Positions 51,244 through 53,749 of a DNA stretch of 64,000 nucleotides are shown here, piece after piece (position 1 is the first letter of the stretch; every line of letters begins with the position of its first letter). The DNA is taken from positions 1-64,000 of the forward strand of contig JACQBG010000020.1 in NCBI GenBank assembly GCA_016194585.1, read 5' to 3'. Source of the stretch: Gemmatimonadota bacterium. Its GTDB lineage: Bacteria > Gemmatimonadota > Gemmatimonadetes > Gemmatimonadales > Gemmatimonadaceae. The position numbers and the translations under genes are program-made. The notes under the pieces were generated by a model, which saw only the letters and a program-made list of their open reading frames with translations, made no database searches and was not told the DNA's origin.

Positions 51244-51353
51244 TTCGTCCTAAATGCGGTCGGTTCGAGTGTGAATCGGTCGAAAGCGGGTGATTGCGCG
51301 CGCGAATGTGCGGCGGATCACGTCGTGAACCGTGGGTGCACAGGGGATCGCGA

Positions 51354-52127
51354 GTGAATTCGAAGCCGAGCATGCCGTCGCCGATCGCGGGGAGTGTATT
51401 GCCGCTTCAGCGGGCGGAGGAGCTCATCGGATCGTTGGCGGGTGTGGTGAGCGCTCGGATCGTGGCGAGCGAGAACGGCACGGTGGAAGCGATCCACGTG
51501 CTGGTGCAGGGAGAGACGCAGCCGAAGCAGATGGTGCGCAACATCGAGAGCGCGTTGATGGCGGATCTCGGGATGCGGGTGGACCATCGGAAGGTGAGCG
51601 TGGCGACGACGACGCGCCGGAGCGGGGAAGTCGCGGTGACGCCGCCGCCTCAGCCGTCGGCGGCGGTCCCGGCGCCGGTGGGCGTGGCAGCGGCCATGCA
51701 GGAGCGTCAGGTGACAGTCGAGCCGGCGGAGGCATCCGGGCGGGCGTTGTATTTCGAGGACGTCGAAGTCCGGGGTTCGCGCGTGAAGGGAGTGACGTGC
51801 AAGGTCACGTTGCGACGCGGGAGCGAGCAGTACGTCGGCGAGGCGGAGGGGCAGGAGGCCGGGGACAAGGCGCGGGTGGAGCTGGCGGCGAGCGCGGCGG
51901 TGCATGCGATCGTGCTGGCGGAGGGGAATGGCCGCACGCTGAGTCTCGAGGGGGCGAAAGTGATCAGCGCGTTCGACCGTGAGCTGGTGTTGGTGGCGGT
52001 GGTGGCGCGTTCGGGGCGGCAGGCGCAGTTTCTGACCGGCTGCTGCGAGATGAAGGACAACAGCGAGACGGCGAGCGCGTTGGCGGTATTGAACGCGACG
52101 AACCGTTGGGTGGAGGGTGTGAAGTAG
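51354..52127 (+). CDS. Two-domain protein of unknown function
   Basis: 257 residues, cytoplasmic, no signal. Domain 1 (about 15-90: GSLAGVVSARIVASENGTVE, QMVRNIESALMADLGMRVDH) has an ACT-like alternation of strands and helices. A Pro/Ala linker follows. Domain 2 (about 125-250: LYFEDVEVRGSRVKGVTCKV, AVHAIVLAEGNGRTLSLEGA) is another alpha/beta unit. GTG 51354 follows AGGGGA; ATG 51372 is an alternative. Proteins of this look are known to me next to HD-GYP genes in other phyla, as here, but no function is established. The element at 52179-52395 lies directly downstream. Confidence 0.65.
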   Translation: MNSKPSMPSPIAGSVLPLQRAEELIGSLAGVVSARIVASENGTVEAIHVLVQGETQPKQMVRNIESALMADLGMRVDHRKVSVATTTRRSGEVAVTPPPQPSAAVPAPVGVAAAMQERQVTVEPAEASGRALYFEDVEVRGSRVKGVTCKVTLRRGSEQYVGEAEGQEAGDKARVELAASAAVHAIVLAEGNGRTLSLEGAKVISAFDRELVLVAVVARSGRQAQFLTGCCEMKDNSETASALAVLNATNRWVEGVK

Positions 52128-52261
52128 GAGCTGCGGCGCCACCGTGGCGCGGCGGTAACGCGGGACTACAGGAAACGACTGAGGAGAAAAAAACCCCCGA
52201 CTCCGGCAGAGCGAAGCTGAGCGGGCCAAAGGGCAGTACGAGCGGAGCCAACCTTGTTTAG

Positions 52262-52289
52262 CACGTCCGAATTGGGCGTGACTTTTTTT
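52262..52289 (+). terminator. Intrinsic terminator inside the inverted-repeat element
   Basis: CACGTCC (52262-52268) pairs with GGGCGTG (52274-52280) around GAATT, followed by AC and seven T (52283-52289). It lies four bases before the Shine-Dalgarno of the mini-ORF, with no room for a promoter between, so downstream expression needs read-through. Confidence 0.65.
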
Positions 52290-52309
52290 CCCAAGGGAGG
52301 TGACGCAAA

Positions 52310-52372
52310 ATGGCCGCGCTTGTGATGAGTCTCTTCTCGTTCGTGCTGGGCGATACGCTGGTTTGGAGGTAA
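52310..52372 (+). CDS. 20-residue leader-like peptide with strong Shine-Dalgarno
   Basis: MAALVMSLFSFVLGDTLVWR. AAGGGAGGTGA (52293-52303) is an almost perfect anti-SD match at ideal spacing from ATG 52310, far better than the site of any neighbour. The TAA at 52370-52372 abuts the right arm of the inverted repeat. The frame continues open after this single stop into the HD-GYP gene at 52412, so it may be a leader peptide, a small membrane-active or signal peptide, or the original N-terminus cut by a stop. Confidence 0.5.
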   Translation: MAALVMSLFSFVLGDTLVWR

Positions 52373-52411
52373 GCCGGAGTCGGGGGTTTCCTCAGGTCTC
52401 TTGGTGCAGCT

Positions 52412-53749
52412 ATGGTGGATCGGCAAACCAAACGATTCGTGGGATTGGTCGCGGCGGCCGCTTTGGTCGCGGCGGGCCTTTCCGCGCGTGTTGGTCTTGG
52501 TTTCGACGAGTACTCGCTGCAAGCGGCAGGGTTCTTCGCGCTTCTCGGAGCGCTGGCAAGCGTTCTCGCCTACAATCTCCCGCGCGATGCGGCCGGAAAC
52601 ATCTCGTTCATTCCGCTGCTGAGCGCGGCAGCAATTGCTCCGAGCTTGTCGGTCGTCCTGGCGTGCACTCTCGCGGTTACGCTCGCCGAAGTCATGCACC
52701 GGCGTGAGTTTGTGAAGGCTGTGTTCAACATCTCACAGACGTCACTCGCGATTGCTGTAGCAGTCTTGATCTATCACGCGTTGGGAGGCACGCCACTGTC
52801 TCCCTCCCAGAACCAGCCGATCTTCCCGTTCATGGTGGCGTTCACAGCGTTCTTCATAGTGAACACCGCGTGCGTGTCGGGCGTGATCGCGGTTAGTCAA
52901 CACCAACGATTCCTCGGCATCTGGTGGCAGAACACTCGGGGAGCATTGGTATATGACTTCTTCGCAATTCCGGCTGTGTATGGATTTGCGTTTGTGTATG
53001 CCAAGTTCGACGCCGGGTGGTGCGCGGCTCTTGCCCTGCCACTCTTCGGCTTGCGGCAGTTGTACAAAACGAATTGGCAGCTTGAGAGGATCAATGAGGA
53101 ATTGCTGCAAGTGATGGTGGCCGCAATCGAAGCACGCGACCCTTACACTTCAGGCCATTCTCAGCGCGTTGCCGAATACGCCGGAATAGTGGCACGGTCG
53201 GCCGGTGTGGGCGCTCGGTCGGTAGGCCGCCTCGCCATGGCCGGGCTCTTGCACGACATCGGCAAGATCTATGAAGAATTCGCCCCGATTCTCCGCAAGC
53301 CAGGACGACTGACGGCGGAGGAATTCGAAATCATGAAGACGCACTCGGAGAAGGGTGCGCGACTTGTTGCAAAAGTCTCACAACTTCGCGATCTCGTGGG
53401 TCCCATTCGGAGTCACCATGAAGCATGGGACGGCTCTGGTTACCCTGATGGCCTGCAAGGCTCGGCGATTCCGTTGTGGGCGCGAGTCATTGCATTCGCT
53501 GATACGATTGACGCGATGACGACCGACCGACCTTATCGCGAAGCTCTCGACGCAGATACGGTGCGCGCGGAGTTGGTGCGAGAGTCCGGGACGCAATTTG
53601 ATCCTGTGATTGCGCGTCGTCTAACGTCTGACGAGCACTGGTCCGAGATGGCCGTTGCGATTAGCCGCAATATCGCGTCTCGTCGTTCACCGACGCATGC
53701 GATTCCGGCGGTGCGGCTCGTCGGAGAACGAGCCCAGGCTCGCGCCTAG
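52412..53749 (+). CDS. Membrane HD-GYP domain protein, probable cyclic-dinucleotide phosphodiesterase
   Basis: 445 residues. Six hydrophobic segments form an N-terminal sensor (about 8-215), then an HD-GYP domain with LLHDIGK (His281-Asp282) and HHEAWDGSGYPDG (335-347). HD-GYP proteins of this type hydrolyse c-di-GMP. The ribosome-binding site is weak, in contrast to the mini-ORF upstream. Hand-counted lines give 52-58% G+C, well below the neighbours, which suggests recent acquisition. Its stop codon shares bases with that of the convergent regulator. Confidence 0.9.
   Translation: MVDRQTKRFVGLVAAAALVAAGLSARVGLGFDEYSLQAAGFFALLGALASVLAYNLPRDAAGNISFIPLLSAAAIAPSLSVVLACTLAVTLAEVMHRREFVKAVFNISQTSLAIAVAVLIYHALGGTPLSPSQNQPIFPFMVAFTAFFIVNTACVSGVIAVSQHQRFLGIWWQNTRGALVYDFFAIPAVYGFAFVYAKFDAGWCAALALPLFGLRQLYKTNWQLERINEELLQVMVAAIEARDPYTSGHSQRVAEYAGIVARSAGVGARSVGRLAMAGLLHDIGKIYEEFAPILRKPGRLTAEEFEIMKTHSEKGARLVAKVSQLRDLVGPIRSHHEAWDGSGYPDGLQGSAIPLWARVIAFADTIDAMTTDRPYREALDADTVRAELVRESGTQFDPVIARRLTSDEHWSEMAVAISRNIASRRSPTHAIPAVRLVGERAQARA

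Follow-up and report, generated by a model that had tools for sequence, protein, structure and literature searches.

A Structured Leader RNA With an Embedded Small ORF Ahead of a MASE9-HD-GYP Gene in Gemmatimonadota: A Candidate Translational Switch

Layout and distribution of the element

Ahead of an HD-GYP gene in a genome of the Gemmatimonadaceae lies an inverted repeat that encloses a hairpin and a 20-codon ORF, raising the question of whether this arrangement is a mobile element, a terminator, or an RNA that regulates the gene following it. The window, meaning the whole stretch of DNA analyzed, comprises 64,000 nucleotides of contig JACQBG010000020.1 (assembly GCA_016194585.1); the family name is taken from the matching public records, which mostly carry it. 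Gemmatimonadota are common in soil and freshwater, and to our knowledge their signaling has been little studied. The gene at 52412..53749 (+ strand; ATG at 52412) is assigned, on its domain matches and predicted model, as a c-di-GMP phosphodiesterase of the HD-GYP type with a MASE9 sensor domain. Its product matches PF20972 (MASE9) with 36.7 bits against a cutoff of 24.3 and also matches PF13487, the HD and HHE..DG.GYP residues are kept in 20 homologs, and the best fold matches of the predicted model are HD-GYP structures. The upstream neighbor (51294..52127, + strand) encodes a conserved protein for which no Pfam or NCBIfam family scored above cutoff. Directly past its stop codon, a GC-rich hairpin (GCGCCAC/GTGGCGC) is present within 52128-52180.

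All of the features that the initial annotation listed between these two genes were found in the sequence where it had placed them. The conserved unit is larger than was described there, and the window element, extending over 52179-52395, is one member of a wider RNA family. The element is closed by a long-range helix, P1, in which the 5′ strand (52191..52207, + strand) and the 3′ strand (52373..52389, + strand) form a perfect 17-bp inverted repeat. On sequence alone, P1 is extended outward by a 6-bp match between CTGAGG (52179..52184, + strand) and CCTCAG (52390-52395). The P1 3′ strand holds a G-run (52382-52386), and the inner part of the 5′ strand is able to pair locally with the segment that carries the first GAGNNRAG motif and AGCGGG (52208..52225, + strand), giving a hairpin, P2, that is alternative to P1 or partly coexists with it. 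The near-invariant core follows as the 5′ strand of P3 (52240..52256, + strand; GAGCGGAGCCAACCUUG), whose GA and AA face GA and GA in the 3′ strand (52292..52306, + strand; CAAGG-GA-GGU-GA-CGC). This 3′ strand includes the Shine-Dalgarno (SD) sequence of the small ORF, GGGAGGTGA (52295-52303). Between the P3 strands stands the P4 hairpin (52260..52283, + strand; CACGTCC-GAATT-GGGCGTG in the window), which has a conserved bulged A at 52281 and is followed by a run of seven T (52283..52289, + strand). The small ORF itself (52310..52372 including TAA, + strand) encodes a hydrophobic peptide of 20 codons, MAALVMSLFSFVLGDTLVWR, ending in [DEG]xxxW. Folded as a single strand, 52160-52420 reaches -113.2 kcal/mol versus -93.8 ± 5.2 kcal/mol for shuffled sequences (z -3.75).

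Among 60 relatives searched at the DNA level, several congeners contain 52181-52393 with 70-80% identity, and other genera contain the core. Aligned loci share a constant order consisting of a C-rich arm, a GAGCGRAG motif, AGCGG(G), GAGCGGAGCC(A/G)ACC, a GAC-ending hairpin, GGGAGGTGACGC, a short ORF, and a G-rich arm, after which the MASE9-HD-GYP gene comes next in nearly all. Of 395 genomes from the phylum, 119 are matched by a covariance model built on the arm-to-start part of the element, with P1 outside the model; almost every match falls within two families of one order, and the matches are essentially single-copy per genome. Within the Gemmatimonadaceae, the element is present in most of the genomes examined. 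Two further families of the class contributed one match each, both with the complete layout including the HD-GYP gene when inspected by eye, and four additional genomes of the f2 family carry an element that the covariance model missed. When 84,980 GTDB species genomes were scanned with a pattern, the matches with high model scores came from records of Gemmatimonadota or from contigs in bins under other labels; the latter contigs are probably mis-binned. A weak match in L200 lacks the element layout.

Many of the sampled genomes are metagenome-assembled. The contigs of L086, L092, L094, L107, L121, L146, L150, and others stop inside the element or no more than about 200 nt from it, and some genomes carry the element on two contig ends, perhaps through disturbance of assembly by the inverted repeat. 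Second copies seen in some genomes are mostly at contig ends and resemble assembly duplicates. At L209:2819-3143, two tandem model matches lie beside an N run, as a duplication or a scaffolding artefact.

Covarying helices and the small ORF

P1, P3, and P4 covary across homologous loci. In an alignment of 100 loci that was fitted to the model, 82.8% of cells are paired, 300 cells carry double changes versus 119 ± 9 after shuffling, and the covariation score is 0.334, with no slid control above 0.091. The unfitted MAFFT alignment of the seeds contains 45 double-change cells versus 22 ± 4 in shuffled alignments. P4 covaries strongly, with 90% of cells paired and both-side changes at eight of its nine pairs over the 100 loci. 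P3 is formed by GCG-GA-GCC-AA-CC with GG-GA-GGU-GA-CGC, and GA is retained on both strands in 92 of the 100 loci. The small-ORF SD constitutes one P3 strand in all seeds of the window's own family, so that covarying stems involve the ribosome binding site (RBS) of the upstream ORF (uORF), as tested for a structured uORF element. The f2 family possesses a variant P3 (GAGCGUC/GACGCUC) plus an extra hairpin.

Since P1 lies outside the covariance model, it was tested apart from the rest. Its inner register is 73% paired versus 36-50% when slid, with 0 of 500 shuffles at most positions, these being bases that adjoin the C- and G-runs, and cognate P1 arms bind with -31.6 kcal/mol versus -23.1 kcal/mol for non-cognate arms. 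A plain alignment that includes the small ORF gave no useful consensus fold, since variation in the ORF throws the arms out of register. It had been suggested that the left arm pairs either locally or with the distant right arm. The distant pairing is borne out by P1 covariation, whereas local pairing as P2, though plausible and in certain clades strong, does not covary significantly overall, and P2 was thus rejected as a proven switch. Of the supposed terminator, the hairpin, P4, is conserved but a run of at least five T follows it in only 10 of 100 loci. With the stem kept and the T-run of the window not kept in homologs, the claim of a regulated internal terminator that requires read-through is not supported. 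Sequences 5′ of the element show no enrichment for sigma-70 promoters.

In 26 close pairs, the small ORF has a dN/dS of 0.35 in frame; in the off-frame controls on the same pairs, pS equals pN at +1 and pN exceeds pS at +2. This substitution pattern indicates purifying selection on the small ORF. Trp occurs among the final four residues in 109 of 115 distinct peptides, usually at the penultimate position, and in most it is preceded at a distance of four residues by D, E, or G, so that the peptide end is nearly always [D/E/G]xxxW plus zero or one residue. The remainder is hydrophobic, with a median peptide length of 22 residues (range 14-39), and the distance from SD to start codon is fixed in most loci. 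The uORF thus has a conserved start, a conserved stop, and protein-level selection ahead of one main ORF. The retention of its amino-acid sequence hints at an activity of the peptide itself, which might work as a nascent chain on reaching the stop codon or as a small peptide in the membrane. A leader peptide that senses an amino acid such as Trp is not indicated, as there is usually a single Trp near the C-terminus, no codon run, and an HD-GYP gene downstream. The small ORF is in frame with the HD-GYP gene in the window, as had been pointed out, but among homologs the frames are split 36/24/23 and the shared frame is coincidental. The lone in-frame TAA therefore carries no meaning as a site of read-through or fusion with HD-GYP. 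The broader proposal of a cis-acting RNA at HD-GYP loci was to be checked by seeking a conserved short ORF and covarying stems in homologous loci, and both were found.

Linkage to the HD-GYP gene and the proposed switch

Judged by gene content and order, the element is near-obligately linked to a single MASE9-HD-GYP gene. This gene lies 3′ of the element in 87 of 100 loci, the remainder being mostly contig ends or divergent genes, and a homolog of the upstream gene lies 5′ of it in 96 of 100. Both element and HD-GYP gene occur in 24 of the 37 family genomes, the element only in one, the gene only in one, and neither in 11 (Fisher p about 2e-7); the sole gene-only genome was scored by the model, and an element-like stretch is visible there by eye. 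The HD-GYP gene has been lost in L007, where element and small ORF are intact, and in L079, whose small ORF additionally carries a frameshift, which suggests coupled decay in the latter.

It is proposed, with middling confidence and on comparative grounds, that this structured intercistronic leader RNA with its embedded micropeptide gene acts as a translational switch for the MASE9-HD-GYP phosphodiesterase. In the folded state, P3 would hide the SD of the small ORF and P1 would hide the G-rich stretch ahead of the HD-GYP start. P3 would open on a signal, which may be ligand binding, a protein, or the supply of ribosomes, and ribosomes would then make the peptide and come to a halt at the base of P1 or slightly short of it. 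A ribosome halted there would open P1, allowing HD-GYP to be translated by coupling. Apart from the G-run in the P1 3′ strand, the HD-GYP start usually has no purine-rich SD, and in most homologs no other stretch 5′ of the start matches the anti-SD better. The distance from G-run to start is mostly 9-16 nt across homologs and 25 nt in the window, so that hiding of the RBS by P1 is less clear there than in most homologs. The partition function gives the G-run an unpaired probability of 0.05 in the folded state, 0.16 when a ribosome occupies the stop codon of the small ORF, and 0.41 without the 5′ arm. On average, a terminating ribosome is predicted to free the G-run to a modest degree; in the window the value goes from 0.00 to 0.53. 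Placement of the G-run and these estimates together favor a translational switch with coupling to the small ORF.

The micropeptide may further be the sensor or effector of an RNA-peptide-enzyme module, with the closing helix coupling it to synthesis of the c-di-GMP phosphodiesterase; this extension is tentative, and its probability is put rather low. The peptide would in that case be read out as a nascent chain when its stop codon is reached, or would lie in the membrane and act on a MASE9 domain resembling ECF S-components. In the predicted model of the whole protein, within which MASE9 was modeled, residues about 28-204 align to the ECF-transporter S-components RibU, FolT, and ThiT at Z 10-13, a range in which helical folds can match by general shape. 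This hints that the MASE9 domain could be a small-molecule-binding sensor.

Several other explanations bear on the same observations. The RNA could chiefly control output of the peptide, with a functional small membrane peptide working on or with the MASE9 sensor in an operon of peptide and sensor enzyme. Purifying selection on the peptide, its hydrophobic core with the conserved D/E/G and terminal Trp, the joint decay in L079, and the likeness of MASE9 to membrane S-components that bind small molecules all agree with this explanation, which is possible but somewhat improbable. Peptide length varies widely, a chain of about 20 residues is still within the ribosome at termination and fits a cis-acting leader too, a membrane peptide does not need the close tie between stop codon and P1, and L007 retains the intact small ORF though its HD-GYP gene is gone. 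Less probable, and in our estimate unlikely, is a ligand-binding riboswitch of a new aptamer class with the small ORF as part of its expression platform. It could account for the near-invariant purine-rich core, the GA/GA mismatches, the two GAGNNRAG motifs, and the exclusive link to one signaling gene, and resemblance of the MASE9 model to vitamin-binding ECF S-components makes a cue shared by RNA and enzyme conceivable. No known riboswitch matches the element, however, and conservation of the small ORF as protein is not required of an expression platform.

Transcription attenuation, in which P1 and a pyrimidine tract would terminate unless small-ORF translation or local P2 pairing prevents it, is given little probability. 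The P1 5′ strand can indeed pair locally, and T-rich tracts past P1 occur in 16 of 92 loci and reach T8 in one genus, making termination at P1 possible in some clades. Most loci lack such a tract, the span of P1 (roughly 150-200 nt) is unusual for a terminator hairpin, and a conserved stem with a U-tract was found at neither P4 nor P1. The initial annotation had also offered a MITE adopted as a switch, to which the terminal inverted repeat in the window would be suited. A MITE requires multiple dispersed copies, whereas the window's genome contains one, in the synteny seen in 96 of 100 loci; class-wide conservation with covariation argues equally against chance structure, and both are considered scarcely credible.

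Relation to known RNA families

The element had been called undescribed, which agrees with the searches made. No Rfam family matches the window at gathering score, none of the c-di-GMP riboswitch families matches around the element up to E 10, and no family matches 20 homologous loci at E 0.05. The open-access literature searched yielded nothing similar and no papers on the element RNA, MASE9, or Gemmatimonadota HD-GYP leaders. The c-di-GMP riboswitches are likewise structured RNAs tied to c-di-GMP signaling, with no sequence or structure match to the element at the tested thresholds. Staphylococcal RNAIII is a regulatory RNA with an embedded delta-haemolysin ORF that acts in trans on other mRNAs; the likeness lies in a short hydrophobic-peptide ORF within a fold, and no homology is claimed.

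By all indications, the element represents a new RNA family of a known general kind, the structured uORF leaders. An undescribed family is thereby added, and the findings suggest that c-di-GMP turnover may be controlled by an RNA that encodes a micropeptide. As one defined RNA and peptide locus with a single c-di-GMP phosphodiesterase and conservation across families, the system is directly testable.

The ykoW motif (WRC-65-2) of Thioalkalivibrio, a three-stem junction in one genus, is similarly an orphan structured RNA before a gene of the c-di-GMP-hydrolysis type, EAL in that case, and the part of the source describing it mentions no uORF (PMC11109978). The ilvB-II uORF attenuator of Corynebacterium was first considered a riboswitch candidate and works through regulatory codons and a terminator (PMC10272879). 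Like ilvB-II, the Gemmatimonadota element is an RNA motif with a leader peptide before an enzyme gene; unlike it, the element contains no codon run or conserved terminator. The closest counterpart in type is odc1 (uORF-25-1), a motif of alpha-proteobacteria and likewise a structured RNA in which a short conserved uORF precedes the main ORF; its RBS lies in stem P1, and a functional role has been proposed for the 11-residue peptide (PMC8632094). By anything tested here, neither odc1 nor ykoW appears related to the element. Gene, phylum, and fold are unrelated to those of odc1; the Gemmatimonadota peptide is hydrophobic and longer, a long-range helix closes around its ORF, and its SD forms part of a helix that contains mismatched purines.
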